Of a DNA stretch of 64,000 bases, positions 21,904-32,190 are shown in pieces. The stretch is from assembly GCA_031266185.1 (NCBI GenBank), contig JAISBM010000004.1:1-64000 (forward strand), given 5' to 3'. The position numbers and the translations under genes are program-made. The stretch's first letter is position 1, and the number at the start of each line of letters is the position of its first letter. The notes below the pieces were generated by a model, which saw nothing but the letters and a program-made list of their open reading frames with translations, was not told where the DNA came from and ran no database searches. The DNA comes from Endomicrobium sp. (GTDB lineage Bacteria > Elusimicrobiota > Endomicrobiia > Endomicrobiales > Endomicrobiaceae).

Positions 21904-23522
21904 TTATAATTGAATCTTTTTCTCAAACAAATTAGCAATATTTGCTCTATGAGAAACAGCAACAATAATTTTGTCTTTATAAAAATTAATTAATCGTTTG
22001 TAAATCTCTATTTCCATTTCTTCATGGATAGAATTTCCAAATTCATCTAATAACAAAACATCAAAATCTTTCATTAAACATCTTGCTAAACTTATTCTTT
22101 GTTTTTCCCCGCCAGAAACAAATATTCCTTTATTCCCTACAATTTTACCGTCATTTAAGTTTTCAAGAGAACATATTTTTGAAATTTCTGAATACTTTTG
22201 AGCTACTAGTGAACTATTATAATCTAAATCTAACAGAATATTTTCTTTAATAGTTGTGTTAAACAAGAATGAATCTTGTGTAAAATATGATATTTTAGAT
22301 CTAAGATTTTTAATATTTATTTCATACAAATTTATACCGTTTATCAAAATATTACCAGAAGATAGACTATCAAAAAGTACTATTAGATTTAAAATTGTAG
22401 TTTTGCCAGCCCCTGTATGTCCGGTTATAATAACTTTATCATTTAAATTAACTTCAAAATTTAAGTCCCTTAATATAATTTTGTTATTTCTCTCTATTGA
22501 AACATCTTTAAAAATTATACTTTTAACTTTTTCAATTTTGTAATCAGGACAATTATCTTTAAAATTTTTATCTTCGCATTTTTTAAGTAATATTCTCTTA
22601 ATCCGTTTCCAAGGTACATTAGAGTTTTTAGTAAAAAAATAAAGACTCCAAAAACTGCTAATAACATAGAAAAGATTATCAGATATATTATAAATAAAAA
22701 CTGCCTGCCCCATAGTAATAACTTTTTGTTGAACTTGATATCCTAAAAGTCCAAGTAAGATCCCAATAATAATATGTTGCAAAGCTATACTAAATTGTCC
22801 AGATGTAAATCCCCAAAACATTTGTTTTGTGTTTATCCAAATTAAATTTTCAGCAGAAGAATTAATTTCAGTTATCTCTTTTTGATACATGTTAAATAGT
22901 TTTATTTCTTTGACAGAATCTATTATATCTGATAACTTTGAAGAATATAAAGCGAACACTTCTTGGTGTTTAGATGTAAAGTATTGATTTTTTTATTAAA
23001 AAAAGAAAAGAATAGGGATGGGAAAATAGCGCTTAAAATAATCAATAAAATAATTAAAAAATTAAATTGTAAAAGTATGGGTATTAAGCAAACTAGAAAA
23101 AATATCGAACTTATACTTGTTGCTATTGGCCTTATAAATAAACTGTTTATAAGCTCTGTATCACTTATGATTCTTTGCGATAAGTATGGACCTTTGTTTA
23201 AATTGCTGTTACTGTTATACCTGGAATTTAAAAATCTTATTAAAATGATTTTTCTAAAATCGAACAAGACTCTATTTTCTAGTAAATACAAAGTAAGTGT
23301 TTTAAATAAAACAGAAATTGAACTAAAAATTAGTACAGAAATATATAAAATTATAAAAATTACAATAAAGTTGTTGCCTATATTAATTGTATCTACAAAA
23401 ATCATTAGAAAAAAAGCTGTAACTATATTGATAAATTTTAATAAAAAATCAATACAAAAATATTGAAAAACTTCTAGCTTGTAATTTTTAAAAAGGTTAA
23501 AGATAGTGTTAAATTTTTTCAT
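21904..23522 (-). pseudogene. ABC exporter (fused membrane and ATPase domains) broken by one frameshift
   Basis: The first frame (from 23522) encodes the N-terminal transmembrane helices of a type I ABC exporter. After KINTLH the reading must shift near 22970-22985 to continue as SKHQEVFALYSSKLSDIIDS. The second frame supplies the remaining helices and a complete ATPase: Walker A GHTGAGKTT, Q-loop SYFTQDSF, signature VSGGEKQR, Walker B VLLLDEFG and a switch His in VAVSHRA. Apart from the single indel all motifs are intact, so inactivation is recent or the frameshift is a sequence error. No C39 peptidase domain is present. Peptide or lipid export is the likely original role. Confidence 0.85.
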
Positions 23523-25635: not shown

Positions 25636-25827
25636 TTATATTGCTTTTTTTATTTTGTTTGACTTAATACAAGAGGTACAAACATATTCGCGAGTTTTCT
25701 TACCGTTAACAACAATGTTTAAACTTTGAAGATTTGGCCTAAAAAGTCTTTTTGAAGCTTTATTTGAGTGGCTTACAGTATTGCCAGATGACGAACCTTT
25801 CCCACAGACTGCACATTTATAAGACAT
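25636..25827 (-). CDS. rpmB: 50S ribosomal protein L28
   Basis: The 63-residue protein has the L28 start [31 protein letters not shown], and two CxxC pairs (C5/C8 and C50/C53) forming a zinc ribbon, ending in a lysine-rich tail. GGAGGG precedes the ATG on the minus strand. Length is normal for zinc-binding L28. It is an intact essential gene standing alone inside a pseudogene island. A 134-bp copy of its 5' half and leader lies at 26641-26774. Confidence 0.95.
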
Positions 25828-26467: not shown

Positions 26468-26640
26468 ACAAATTGTTCTTTGATCGTTCTGTTAAAGCGT
26501 TCAATGTATGCGTTGTTTTAGGATTATGCGGATAATTAAAAAAATGTGTTAAATCATTTGCTTTCAAAGTAATCATGTGCATGTCCTGCAAACTCACTTC
26601 CGTTATCCGTCAAGATCCGTTTTATTTCAAAAGGGCAAAA
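26400..26640 (-). mobile_element. Transposase (DDE integrase type) C-terminal remnant
   Basis: On the minus strand, [20 protein letters not shown] carries the second catalytic aspartate of DDE integrases (TDNGSEF). After a frameshift, THFFNYP then NAYIERFNRTIKEQFVYRNQ contains the catalytic glutamate motif (IERFNRT), ending NEKIKDWLL. This resembles IS481/IS3-type elements. The N-terminal half and both ends of the element are absent. Its 5' side is fused to the partial rpmB copy. Confidence 0.8.
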
Positions 26641-26774
26641 GTTTAAACTTTGAAGATTTGGCCTAAAAAGTCTTTTTGAAGCTTTATTTGAGTGGCTTAC
26701 AGTATTGCCAGATGACGAACCTTTCCCACAGACTGCACATTTATAAGACATTTTCTACATTCCTCCCAATAATA
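26641..26774 (-). pseudogene. Truncated rpmB copy fused to transposase remnant
   Basis: The first 37 codons of rpmB and its ribosome site are duplicated here. The frame then passes directly into the transposase remnant (residue 38 on: [17 protein letters not shown]). The start signals are intact, so a 65-residue chimera could be translated. It carries only one of the two zinc CxxC pairs and cannot replace L28. It is the second copy of the 134-bp repeat. Confidence 0.85.
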
Positions 26775-27528: not shown

Positions 27529-27642
27529 ATGCCAAAAGTTATTATTGTTACTAGTACTAAAGGCATTGGGGAATTAATTTTGGACATAATAAAATGTTGC
27601 AAATGTTATGTAACAATACATGAGCTTGCTTTTTTGCAATAA
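27529..27642 (+). pseudogene. Short SDR-like N-terminal remnant
   Basis: Four nt after the HIT stop, an ORF of 37 codons starts MPKVIIVTSTKGIGELIL. It resembles the TGxxxGIG nucleotide-binding start of short-chain dehydrogenases, but with the first glycine replaced. It ends after 37 residues (HELAFLQ) without any further SDR sequence. Confidence 0.4.
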
Positions 27643-27748
27643 TATTTTGTAAAATATACGCTAAGTTAACAAGGGAGAAAAAGTGCAGATTTCAGCATAC
27701 AGCATATAATGTAATAAATTCCGCAAGAGCATTTTTTTACAAAAAAGT

Positions 27749-27785
27749 AAAGCCGTTGTCTGGTATTTTCAGACAACGGCTTTTT
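27749..27785 (+). terminator. Perfect 14-bp hairpin plus T-run before the RiPP precursor
   Basis: AAAGCCGTTGTCTG at 27749-27762 pairs perfectly with CAGACAACGGCTTT at 27770-27783 over a 7-nt loop, and a T-run follows. It is G+C-rich compared with its surroundings. It could end transcription from the HIT side or act as an attenuator in a leader that continues into the precursor gene. Confidence 0.8.
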
Positions 27786-27800
27786 CATTTTGTTGTTAAA

Positions 27801-27831
27801 AAGGAGGGTGTGTATGAAAAAGTATGAGTAA
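27801..27831 (+). promoter_or_regulatory. Strong ribosome site with five-codon ORF in the precursor leader
   Basis: AAGGAGGG at 27801-27808 is a near-perfect Shine-Dalgarno. It is followed 5 nt later by ATG AAA AAG TAT GAG TAA (27814-27831). It lies between the hairpin and the precursor gene. It may be a leader-peptide remnant or the start of a decayed earlier precursor. Confidence 0.4.
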
Positions 27832-27900
27832 ATTCTTCGATTTTTTGTAACCGCAGAAGTTAGGTATTAAATTCATGTAAAATAAAGATTGGAGGAAAAA

Positions 27901-28080
27901 ATGGCAAAGTTTAAAAAAGAAAAAGTCTCATTTTTTAAGAAAGAATTAAAGGCACTGTGTGCATATACACTAGCAGATGATAACCCATGGAAGGATCGCC
28001 GTCCACCTAACCCTCCTCCTACTCAGCCCAAACCTCAGCCTCCTTTGCCTGGGTTTCCTCCGTTTAGACCTTTTTTTTGA
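27901..28080 (+). CDS. RiPP-type precursor peptide with proline-rich tail
   Basis: The 59-residue peptide starts at ATG 27901, 5 nt after GGAGG; an in-frame TTG at 27889 overlaps that site and is rejected. Residues 1-25 form a basic, amphipathic leader-like segment (MAKFKKEKVSFFKKELKALC) with the only cysteine, C20. Residues 26-59 are unusual: an acidic pair, NPW, KDRR, then a tail with 13 prolines in 27 residues (PPNPPPTQPKPQPP) ending GFPPFRPFF. Such tails resemble proline-rich antimicrobial peptides, and PPP stretches need EF-P for translation. The three next genes encode a PqqD-like protein, a radical SAM enzyme and an exporter. I do not recognise the precursor family. Confidence 0.75.
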   Translation: MAKFKKEKVSFFKKELKALCAYTLADDNPWKDRRPPNPPPTQPKPQPPLPGFPPFRPFF

Positions 28081-28108
28081 TGAGTATATCCGGTGATAGT
28101 GATAAGTA

Positions 28109-28381
28109 ATGTATATATTAAACAAATTTTTACGAATTAAAAAGTCTTATGTTTTCGGTTCATTTTATATAATTTATGTGCAATATCCATATTATATAAA
28201 TTGTGATACGAAGTTTTATGTATCTAAGGAAATGAAAAAAATTTTTAATTATTTAAAAAAGATTAAAAATTTTGAATTAACTATTTTTTATGAGATTTTA
28301 AATAATAGTGAAGATGAAATAAAAGAAATAATTAGAATGTTAATTAGCAACAAGGTGATTTTAAATGCAGATCTTGGATAG
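28109..28381 (+). CDS. PqqD-like RiPP recognition protein (RRE)
   Basis: The 90-residue protein has an N-terminal beta-rich part (KKSYVFGSFYIIYVQYPYYI). A winged-helix-like part follows (VSKEMKKIFNYLKKIKNFEL, EILNNSEDEIKEIIRMLISN), as expected for a PqqD-fold RRE that binds the precursor leader and presents it to a radical SAM enzyme. The last 17 nt overlap the radical SAM gene. The assignment rests on size, predicted pattern and position; the sequence is divergent. Confidence 0.6.
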   Translation: MYILNKFLRIKKSYVFGSFYIIYVQYPYYINCDTKFYVSKEMKKIFNYLKKIKNFELTIFYEILNNSEDEIKEIIRMLISNKVILNADLG

Positions 28382-29354
28382 CTATATTACAATTACATTA
28401 GAATTAACATACAATTGTAATTTTAAATGTGTACATTGCTTTAATTCTTATAAGAAAGCTCAAGATAAAAGTCTTGAGCTTTCTTTAGAAAATATAAAAT
28501 ATATTGTAGAAAAAACTAAAAAGTTAGATATTCTTAAAATATATTTGTTTGGTGGAGAACCTCTGCTTAATAAAAACTTTAAGGAAATCTATGTGTTTTT
28601 ATGGAATCAAGGATTCCAAATTACAATCACTACTAATGGATTTCTGCTATCTAAGAAAATTATTGATCTTTTCAAAAAATATCCTCCTTTTAATCTTAAT
28701 ATTAGTTTATATGGATACAATTCCCAAACATATATAGACACAACCTCTTTTAATGTTTTTGAAACTATCTACTCAAATCTAAAATCCCTACAGGAAAGTA
28801 ACATGGATTTTTTTATCAAATATATAGCTTTGAAAACTAATTTTAACTATGATTTAATAATAAATTTTATGTTAAAAAACAGCTTTAATTATGCTATTCA
28901 ATATTCAATAATCCCACTTTTAAATACAGATCTAAAAAGTTTACAATATCAAATTTCTGAAACTGAATTAAAGCAAATAAGTCCAGCTAAAAATATGAAT
29001 CTAAAAGTAGATGCCACAGAACATTATTCGGTTTATGAAAAAAAAGAAAATAGATGTGAAGTTTGGAAACAAAGTTTTGTAATTGCTCCTAATGGAGATA
29101 TGAGACCATGCATTCCATTTACTAATTCAAAAAAAATTAATATATTCAAAAGAATAAAAATTGAAAATTTATTATTAAAATTAGGCAATAATTTTAATGA
29201 AAATAATATATATTATGGTAAATGTAGTAAATGTTTAGATAAAGATTTTTGTGAATGTCCTGTTATTATAAACTTATATAAAGGTAAAGATCTATCTAAT
29301 GTTTGCCACCGAACTAAAATTAAAAAACTAAAGAAAAAGGTATTAAATAAATGA
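28365..29354 (+). CDS. Radical SAM/SPASM peptide-modifying enzyme
   Basis: The 329-residue protein has the SAM cluster motif CNFKCVHC (CxxxCxxC, about 18-25) and FGGEPLLN. The C-terminal SPASM region has APNGDMRPC, then GKCSKCLDKDFCECP and a final C before HRT, giving the cysteines for auxiliary Fe-S clusters. This architecture is standard for enzymes that crosslink or otherwise modify ribosomal peptides. It overlaps the RRE upstream (17 nt) and the exporter downstream (ATGA), so the three are one translational unit. The obvious substrate is the proline-rich peptide at 27901-28080; the reaction cannot be predicted. Confidence 0.88.
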   Translation: MQILDSYITITLELTYNCNFKCVHCFNSYKKAQDKSLELSLENIKYIVEKTKKLDILKIYLFGGEPLLNKNFKEIYVFLWNQGFQITITTNGFLLSKKIIDLFKKYPPFNLNISLYGYNSQTYIDTTSFNVFETIYSNLKSLQESNMDFFIKYIALKTNFNYDLIINFMLKNSFNYAIQYSIIPLLNTDLKSLQYQISETELKQISPAKNMNLKVDATEHYSVYEKKENRCEVWKQSFVIAPNGDMRPCIPFTNSKKINIFKRIKIENLLLKLGNNFNENNIYYGKCSKCLDKDFCECPVIINLYKGKDLSNVCHRTKIKKLKKKVLNK

Positions 29355-30970
29355 AAAAATTCAAAATTTTAAATAAAGATTTTATTAAATCGCAGATTTA
29401 TATATTTATTACTATCATAATTTTACAATTGTTTTTTTTAGTAAATCCATTTATATATAAAAAAATTATAGATGAGGCTGTATTAAAAAACAATTTAAAT
29501 TTATTTTTTAAATATATACTTATTTATCTGATTTTTGCTTTAATAAAATTCTTGTTAGAATATTTGGATTTTATATGCGCAGCTTATTTTCAAAATAAAA
29601 ACTACTTAATATTAAATAATATTTTTTTTACAAAATTTTTAAAAATAAAAGAAAATATATTAAAGAAAAAAGCAGGCGGGGAAATACAACATATTCTTAA
29701 TAATGACATTAATAATATTTTGGTTTATGTAACATCTACTTTTGCTAATTTGTTAAGTAATTTATTGAGTGCGCTAGTAGCTTTATTTTTTATTTTCAGA
29801 TTAAATACAAAAGTAGGATTTATTTCTTTAGCTACTTGTGCTATTATGTTGTTTGTTAGCAATAAATTTTATAAAAAAAATATAGCATTAGCCCCATTTA
29901 TAAGAGATACATCGAAGGATAAACTAGACTTTTTGCTTTCAATATATAATTATTCAGGATATATAAAAAGCAATCGATTAATGGATTTTTTCAAAGGTAA
30001 ATATTTTGGACTTAATAATAAATATAATTTTTATTTATATAAAGAAGCATGCAATGATATTTTTTCTGACCAGATAAATAATTTTTTAAGGCTAATAGTA
30101 AGTATTTTAGTTTTAATATTTATGGGTTTGAATTTATTTGGAGGCAAAACTACTTTAGGGACAATATTAGCAGTAGAAGCTCTACTACCACTATTTTATA
30201 ATCCTATGTTGTATTTTTTCAATAGCATAACAAGATTAGGCAAGACTAAAGAATCATTAAAAAGATTAGAAGAATTTGGGAATTATGAGGAGGAAGTTTA
30301 TGGGAAAGGATTAAAAATAGATAAAATAAAAACCATCAACCTGGACAATATTAAATATTCCCATGATAACAAAAAAATTCTATATGAAAATTTGACTAAA
30401 AAAATAGAGATTGGGAAAATAAATTTTATTGTTGGAGCAAACGGTATAGGAAAAACTACTTTATTTAAAATAATCTTAAATTTATTTGATTTAGATACTG
30501 GAGATATAAAAGTTAATGATACATCTATAAAAGAGATAGACTTAGAAAGTTATAGGCAACATTTTTTATATACATCATAAGAACCATTTATAATGAAAGG
30601 AACTATCTTTGAAAATATAGTTTTAAATAAATCAATAAATCAAGAAGATTTGATTGAAATATTAAAAAAATATAATTTATACAGTAGAGTTAATAACTTA
30701 GGTGGTCTAGATAAAAATGTTTCTAGTGGTGGTAAAGAATTAAGTGGCGGTGAGAAACAAGTAATAGAAATTATACGATTTCTTTTAAATGATTCACAGA
30801 TGATATTAATGGATGAACCTCAAGCAAATATTGACCAAGAATTAAAAGAGATTTTAGCAGATATAATTGAACAATTTAATCAGTCTGGAGTTACGTTTAT
30901 TATAATTTCCCATCAAGAATTTGATTTTAAAAATGAAAATACGAAAAATCGGCATATAGTACAATTATAG
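29351..30970 (+). pseudogene. ABC exporter of the RiPP locus, interrupted by one in-frame TAA
   Basis: The 539-codon frame encodes six membrane helices (about 10-290) and an ATPase: Walker A GANGIGKTT, signature LSGGEKQV, Walker B MILMDEPQ and switch His in IISHQE. It is interrupted only by TAA at 30578-30580. The context YTS*EPFIMKGTIFENI places the stop exactly at the Q-loop glutamine (compare YFTQDSF in the exporter at 21904-23522). A single CAA to TAA change explains it. No peptidase domain is fused. The product is probably lost or truncated unless the stop is read through or is a sequencing/strain difference. Confidence 0.85.
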
Positions 30971-31008: not shown

Positions 31009-32190
31009 TTAGTCGTACCTCAACGCTTCTGTAGGACTCAATTTAGAGGCTTTTCTTGCAGGCCACACTCCAAAAATTAGGCCGGTAAACCCTGAAAAGC
31101 AAAAAGCAAGTACTATTGAAAATGGTGTTATGACAGTTGGCCAACCGGCAAGCTTGCTGACTATAATTGAAGCTATAGATCCAAATATTATGCCAACAAA
31201 GCCTCCAATACAACATACAAAAATGGATTCAATTATAAACTGAAGCAAAATATCTGCATTGTTTGCACCAATTGCTTTCCTTAGACCTATCTCTTTTGTT
31301 CTTTCGGAAACAGATACAAACATTATGTTCATAATACCTATTCCGCCTACAAGCAAACTTATAAAACCAATAGAGCCTAACAAAAGAGAAAATGCTCTTG
31401 TCGTTTGTGACACGGTCTCTTGGATTTCAACCATATTCCAAACTTTTATGGCATCTCTTTGTGAAGCAGGCATTCTATGTGTAAATAAGAGTCGAGTTAT
31501 TATAGATTCAGCCACTTCGTTCATATCTGCATCATCTCGTACCTGAACATCCATATAGTTTAAATACACAGTACCAAGTACTCTTTTCAAGGCTGTATTT
31601 AAAGGCATAGTTACTTTATCATCTTCATCACGCCAACCGCTAGAGCCTTTAACTGGCAAAACTCCTATTACTCGAAAATCTATTCTGTTAATTTTTATGT
31701 ATTCACCAATGGGATTAAAATTTTTATCTCCATAAATTTCATTGATCACAGTTTTTCCAAGTAGCACAACCTTTTTTTTATCAATATTTTCAGCCTCGGT
31801 AAAAAATATGCCCCTAGAAGGATGAGAATTTTTTAAGTCAGCATAGTCTGGAGAAACACCTTCTAATACCGTATTATAATTTCTACCATTTGCAACAACT
31901 TGAGCTCTTCCAGTAGCATAACCTACTACAGCTTTTATGCCAGCTACATTTCTTTTAAGATCATATATGTCCTCAACCTTAAATCCTATGTAAGAGTCAG
32001 TTTCAATAGAAATTCCACCTGAAATCTCATTTGGGCGATGGTTTAGACGGTCTGATAACCCCACCATATTTAGCAACTTGACAGGATCTTCATGCATGTC
32101 ATTTTTTGAAGAATAAATAGTAGGTAAAGCTACGTTTTCTAGTATTGTAAGCTTATCCGTCACCGTGACCAGTGATGAAGGCGTGGACAA
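31009..32190 (-). pseudogene. MacB-type ATPase/permease deletion chimera
   Basis: Residues 1-60 are a piece of a MacB/LolD-like ATPase (LTILENVALPTIYSSK, LLNMVGLSDRLNHRPNEISGG), lacking Walker A and everything after the signature. They run straight into the periplasmic domain of the partner permease (TDSYIGFKVEDIYDL) and its FtsX-like membrane part. The latter ends normally with GLRKAIGA and ARKASKLSPTEALRYD. An internal deletion has fused two adjacent genes in frame and removed the first permease helix. The start is only a TTG without ribosome site. Transport function is not expected. Confidence 0.8.

Follow-up and report, generated by a model that had tools for sequence, protein, structure and literature searches.

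A radical-SAM RiPP cassette, probably horizontally acquired and partly decayed, in an Endomicrobiellum genome

Gene content of the locus

The window analysed here is a stretch of 64,000 nucleotides from a 52%-complete MAG of the genus Endomicrobiellum (G000), the nearest named relatives of which are the termite-gut flagellate endosymbionts Candidatus Endomicrobiellum siamense and cryptotermitis (PMC11257099). Between positions 27901 and 30970 of the plus strand, the gene for a precursor peptide is followed by those for a 90-aa protein, a radical SAM/SPASM enzyme and a peptidase-less ABC exporter (Table 1). A preliminary description of this DNA had interpreted these four genes as a RiPP locus; they lie where it placed them, and the last three do overlap by 17 and 4 nt. 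The three genes downstream of the precursor have a GC content of 19-23%, against 30% for the window, and the precursor has a higher value than these three because of its proline codons.

Table 1. Features of the RiPP locus and their coordinates in the window
Feature	Coordinates	Strand	Evidence or remark
Dispersed composite repeat, core about 27693-27789	27625..27870	.	Copies elsewhere in the genus
Two-way intrinsic-terminator-like hairpin within the repeat	27749..27783	.	Sequence
Precursor	27901..28080	+	59 aa; homologues in relatives
Leader, residues 1-19, MAKFKKEKVSFFKKELKAL	27901..27957	+	Conserved in 5 Endomicrobiellum copies
Conserved motif, residues 20-30, CAYTLADDNPW	27958..27990	+	C20, D26, D27, P29 and W30 invariant in four precursors from two phyla
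Pro-rich tail, residues 31-59	27991..28077	+	Variable among relatives
90-aa protein in the position of a discrete RRE/PqqD-like chaperone	28109..28381	+	Position; RRE/PqqD assignment putative
Radical SAM/SPASM peptide maturase (predicted)	28365..29354	+	Pfam domains, cysteines, dN/dS 0.18
Peptidase-less ABC exporter gene	29351..30970	+	539 codons, in-frame stop inside
In-frame TAA inside the exporter gene	30578..30580	+	Nucleotide-binding domain, FLYTS*EPFIMKG; CAA in relatives

The third gene encodes a radical SAM protein, as previously described (Pfam Radical_SAM, E=1.3e-21), with CxxxCxxC at residues 18-25; its Pfam SPASM match (E=0.0029) lies below the curated cut-off. The SPASM cysteines (231, 249, 287, 290, 296 and 298) and C18, C22 and C25 are all invariant among 14 relatives. 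The last SPASM pair is CxC; the usual last pair is CxxxC. Among proteins of solved structure, SkfB (E=4e-39) and CteB gave the best profile matches, and PapB is among the longest-covering NCBIfam matches, far below its equivalog cut-off (NF047865; 67.3 bits versus 340). The NCBIfam scores for AlbA (41 bits versus 850) and SkfB (39 versus 300) also fall short. Because no curated family threshold is reached, the chemistry cannot be read from homology. Top structural matches of the enzyme model were MoaA, SuiB, SkfB and EpeE; the SPASM region has a pLDDT below 50, which makes that half of the model unreliable, so these matches mainly reflect the radical SAM core.

The 90-aa protein had been called PqqD-like. 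Its position, size and strand-strand-helix-helix-helix pattern fit this description, but its sequence supports neither PqqD nor an RRE: Pfam and NCBIfam searches returned no PqqD (PF05402) match, and neither did hhalign comparison of its very shallow profile with four true PqqD proteins. The fold pattern comes from a poor AlphaFold model (pLDDT 40), which had no structural match in the PDB.

The exporter is not the single intact gene of the preliminary description, because one TAA splits its frame into ORFs at 29351-30580 and 30593-30970. As E. siamense, G017, G030 and G009 all read CAA (Gln) at this position, the stop is specific to G000; it could be a nonsense mutation, or an error of sequencing or assembly in a MAG of this completeness. 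If it is a nonsense codon, the peptide is probably no longer exported, or its export has recently begun to fail. Other copies carry other stops: G017 a different one at codon 97, and G009 several. An N-terminal C39 peptidase domain of the Mbov_0121 family (NF045998) was not found in the exporter, whose match (156 bits, cut-off 500) starts at profile position 147; leader removal, if any, would therefore happen elsewhere.

Several neighbouring genes also seem to be disrupted or duplicated. On the minus strand of the window, another ABC exporter (21904-23522) seems to be frameshift-split into ORFs of 199 and 351 aa, and the beginning of an L28-like ribosomal protein gene is present in two copies (25636-25827 and 26554-26751), the second of which runs into transposase-like sequence, a trace of insertion with duplication. 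On the same strand, a MacB-like permease (31009-32190), with an N-terminus like a piece of an ABC ATPase, seems to be a deletion fusion; the same permease adjoins the exporter remnant in G030.

Conservation within the precursor peptide

The precursor ORF is preceded by a Shine-Dalgarno sequence (GGAGG, 27891-27895). As described earlier, it encodes 59 residues with 13 prolines among the last 27, the end GFPPFRPFF and a single cysteine, which is C20. Its first 32 codons are kept beside the same genes in relatives, which argues that it is more than a chance ORF. Homologues are found in E. siamense (MAKVKKEKVVFFEEDLASHCGCGMRGDDRPWRDPPSHVHARLYTPSQHKD) and in G009 (MTKFKKEKVSFFKKELRLDCACARGDDSPWLMPPPPPRPNPPPLPKPF). 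In Clostridium hydrogeniformans, the ORF directly before the gene for a radical SAM enzyme 33% identical to that of the window has a strong Shine-Dalgarno sequence and encodes MFYEKPEFEIITINLLGNVCACASDDDNPWAG; downstream of the enzyme gene lie genes for an ABC exporter and a true PqqD. Conservation of the peptide beside the enzyme, which the preliminary description had proposed as the test of its reading, thus holds for E. siamense, where a conserved leader and a variable core adjoin the enzyme gene, but not for G009, where the precursor is kept and the enzyme gene deleted. Together with the recurrence of the motif in C. hydrogeniformans, this supports the RiPP reading, and the locus has the features by which radical-SAM RiPPs are generally recognized: a short precursor with a conserved leader and a more variable core, and an adjoining radical SAM enzyme.

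Nine residues are invariant across the four aligned precursors (M1, K5, E7, L16, C20, D26, D27, P29 and W30), all of which share C-x(5,6)-D-D-x-P-W. Three of them also have C-x-C; the window precursor reads CAY, with Tyr in place of the second Cys, and for this reason does not match C-x-C-x3-D-D-x-P-W. Beyond the motif, the tail is Pro-rich in G009, different and not Pro-rich in E. siamense, and absent in C. hydrogeniformans. Judged from this alignment, the conserved part of the precursor is the 11-residue motif and not the Pro-rich tail. The case for conservation rests on four precursors, with that of G009 standing without its radical SAM gene; given this loss, the G009 precursor is best seen as a released copy.

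The motif was found post hoc, during inspection of the small ORFs that adjoin genes for related enzymes. As an exact DNA pattern, C-x-C-x3-D-D-x-P-W has three matches in 732 genomes (391 Clostridia and 341 Elusimicrobiota), two of them in these RiPP loci, and a scan of 207 Clostridiaceae added none. The third match, in G758, was dismissed as chance, as no precursor-like gene or enzyme lies nearby. This rarity in the genomes scanned makes coincidence unlikely. Viral-contig searches for the enzyme and for the motif returned no matches, nor did a plasmid search with the Clostridium precursor. Literature searches on the DDNPW motif, proline-rich radical SAM RiPPs and Elusimicrobia RiPPs yielded nothing relevant, and the motif is without description in the databases and literature searched.

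Partial copies of the precursor also occur. In G030 (G030:C40), a leader-only copy of 20 codons followed by a stop precedes a B12-type radical SAM gene, and a similar 20-codon copy lies in E. siamense (G004:C23); both (L037 and L042, around 1500-1560) are accompanied by the repeat found upstream of the window precursor. We rejected them as second precursors because both stop right after the leader, as truncated duplicates would. In C. hydrogeniformans, a short ORF immediately before the precursor gene (L028:5730-5801; MFHEKSEFKMKLINL...) resembles a second, truncated leader, and that locus has a second radical SAM gene (L028:4747-5628) like the YydG peptide epimerase (83 bits, cut-off 300), so the peptide there may be doubly modified.

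Probable horizontal acquisition and decay of the cassette

In a maximum-likelihood tree, the enzymes of the window and E. siamense (86% identical) group with Clostridia and one Omnitrophota sequence (support 97/99), on a long branch and separate from the common Elusimicrobiota enzymes. This position, the low GC content and the patchy distribution fit a horizontal gain, and suggest that the enzyme, or the cassette, was acquired in this way from a donor that the long branch does not fix exactly. Elusimicrobiota outside the genus have a widespread cassette of PqqD, a radical SAM/SPASM enzyme and a precursor of ~48 aa (L005, L006, L008-L010, L012, L015, L016, L020, L021 and L024), joined in some by a peptidase S24/signal-peptidase-like protein. 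Its precursor reads KKxxKPxIxSEKIFETAALACGKCxxGxxxxxxxC, and those tested had no significant Pfam or NCBIfam match.

Traces of the window cassette occur in 7 of the 77 genomes of the family, all in the same genus. It is complete up to the contig end in E. siamense (G004); G009 has lost the enzyme and has the small protein fused to the exporter; E. cryptotermitis (G040) has an enzyme gene full of stops and no precursor; G017 retains an exporter at a contig end; and G030 and G020 hold fragments. Comparison of G000 with E. siamense gives a dN/dS of 0.18 for both the enzyme and the exporter, 0.29 for the small protein and about 0.7 for the leader of the precursor; for the precursor compared with G009, the ratio is 0.48. 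These ratios indicate that the enzyme evolved under purifying selection. With the broken copies, they suggest that selection maintained the cassette until recently and that it is now disappearing piece by piece, as would be expected under the progressive genome erosion known for Endomicrobiellum (PMC11257099).

The repeat upstream of the precursor has 13 matches in G004 and 3 in G000, counting the query itself and its inverted self match. At the homologous position, E. siamense and G009 have promoter-like sequence instead (TTGACA-N17-TACACT/TATACT), and insertion of the repeat, with its terminator-like hairpin, may have altered expression in G000. An Rfam scan around the locus gave chance-level matches only.

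How real and how alive the cassette is can be weighed on these observations. The small ORF is short and unusual in composition, as a chance ORF unrelated to the enzyme might be, but its start, Shine-Dalgarno sequence, leader and motif are conserved in relatives and in another phylum, and its proline content exceeds that of any other ORF in the window; we find this reading hardly credible. A far closer call is whether the whole G000 cassette is already a non-functional pseudogene remnant, its open frames being leftovers of recent erosion. The in-frame TAA, the terminator hairpin where relatives have promoter-like sequence, the broken state of the locus in G040, G009, G017 and G020, its going undetected in most of the genus and the erosion known for Endomicrobiellum (PMC11257099) all speak for this. 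However, the genes for the precursor, the small protein and the enzyme remain intact and show low dN/dS in the comparison with E. siamense, and a lone stop may reflect an error or allow partial readthrough. We lean slightly against a remnant, which is in any case compatible with our best explanation, as the later fate of the cassette. The cassette of the window is a real radical-SAM RiPP locus, probably horizontally acquired and partly decayed in G000.

Proposed chemistry and relation to known systems

The explanation that we consider rather likely for the whole is a horizontally gained radical-SAM RiPP cassette in which the motif is modified, the tail is variable and export is failing in G000. 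The basic leader of the precursor would be held by the small protein, acting as an RRE-type partner, and presented to the radical SAM/SPASM enzyme. Going by conservation, the enzyme would modify C-x5-D-D-x-P-W, placing a Cys-sulfur-to-carbon crosslink from C20 to D26, D27 or a neighbour, with Trp30 as a possible alternative or second site. The variable C-terminal extension, Pro-rich in G000, would be the diversifying part of a product that the ABC exporter would send out, perhaps, at a guess, to interfere with other bacterial residents of the protist or gut.

The preliminary description had thought sulfur-to-carbon bridging unlikely, a view that the homologues do not support: C20 is one of the nine invariant residues, and the other three precursors have C-x-C. 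Precursors that adjoin more distant members of the enzyme family also carry a Cys right after the leader, in other Elusimicrobiota (...SEKIFETAALACGKC...), Clostridia (...EESIAICNKW...) and Omnitrophota (...PEQAVLTCFC...). Of the two best profile matches, CteB is a thioether maker. SkfB is another (PMC6231123), and PapB joins Cys to the Asp beta carbon with 0-6 residues between them (PMC9413430). The Cys-to-Asp spacing in the four precursors is five or six residues. The invariance of the Cys, the distant Cys-bearing leaders, the SkfB and CteB matches and the PapB-like spacing lead us to favour a thioether from Cys to Asp or a neighbouring residue, and a ranthipeptide- or sactipeptide-like Cys-based thioether is the best-supported candidate chemistry.

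Its main rival is a Trp crosslink. Of the carbon-carbon sites named earlier (W30, F52 and F55), F52 and F55 are not conserved, but W30 is invariant in all four precursors and still eligible, and the streptide maturase SuiB ranks among the top structural matches; a streptide- or triceptide-like cyclophane could join W30 to a nearby residue such as K/R31 or D32. The residues after the Trp vary, however (KD, RD, LM and AG), the Cys and two Asp are equally invariant, and the distant family precursors share the Cys and not the Trp, so we regard this cyclophane as unlikely. Less likely by some distance is modification of the Pro-rich tail, which the preliminary description had likened to antimicrobial peptides that bind ribosomes or chaperones, to give a product of this type like the eukaryotic proline-rich antimicrobial peptides. 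With its 13 prolines, Arg and Phe, the tail invites the comparison, and the G009 precursor also ends Pro-rich, but the C. hydrogeniformans precursor lacks a tail, that of E. siamense has one that is not Pro-rich although its enzyme is 86% identical to that of the window, and the homologues have no conserved Pro/Arg-rich active region. The literature searched contained no report of such a tail in connection with a radical SAM RiPP. The Pro-rich tail, which two of the four precursors have, cannot be the target that the enzyme needs.

The Cys-to-Asp thioether that we favour, or the Trp crosslink, or both, would also figure in a broader proposal that we offer tentatively as a possibility: a new RiPP family of Clostridium and protist endosymbionts with a C-x(5,6)-D-D-x-P-W core, to which Endomicrobiellum added a Pro-rich tail used in or around the protist host. 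The motif provides a defined 11-residue target, with two small testable enzyme/peptide pairs, from E. siamense and from the C. hydrogeniformans DSM strain. A RiPP pathway is a new trait for a group so far known for metabolic gene gain and loss, and this one would be a natural-product pathway that an intracellular symbiont of termite-gut protists acquired and is now in the course of losing.

The cassette is a variant within the known radical-SAM RiPPs and not a new kind of system. With ranthipeptides (PapA/PapB; SCIFF/CteB), in which the Cys thiol is bound to a carbon other than the alpha carbon, for example the Asp beta carbon, it shares a radical SAM/SPASM maturase, long-covering profile matches of the enzyme to PapB and CteB, and a Cys followed by an Asp at short spacing (C-x5-D), but its precursor has a single Cys rather than many, a discrete small protein stands in place of a fused RRE, and the PapB score is 67 against 340. 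Sactipeptides (SkfA/SkfB and subtilosin, made with AlbA) likewise have radical SAM/SPASM-made Cys crosslinks, in their case thioethers to an alpha carbon, and SkfB is the best solved-structure profile match, whereas the window precursor lacks a multi-Cys core and the enzyme scores below the NCBIfam cut-offs. Streptide and the three-residue cyclophane RiPPs (SuiB) resemble it in the radical SAM/SPASM fold and the conserved Trp; unlike them, the window family has no conserved residue after the Trp, and its constrained residues include Cys and Asp-Asp. The other Elusimicrobiota PqqD-type cassettes have homologous enzymes (about 25-29% identity), a small chaperone and a short basic leader ending at a Cys, but differ in the core, in their separate enzyme clade and in having no ABC exporter in the short flanks read. 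Alike in its C-x(5,6)-DD-x-PW precursor, radical SAM/SPASM enzyme (33%) and peptidase-less ABC exporter is the locus of C. hydrogeniformans DSM 21757 (L028), which differs in a 32-aa precursor without a tail, an extra YydG-like radical SAM gene and a true PqqD after the exporter.
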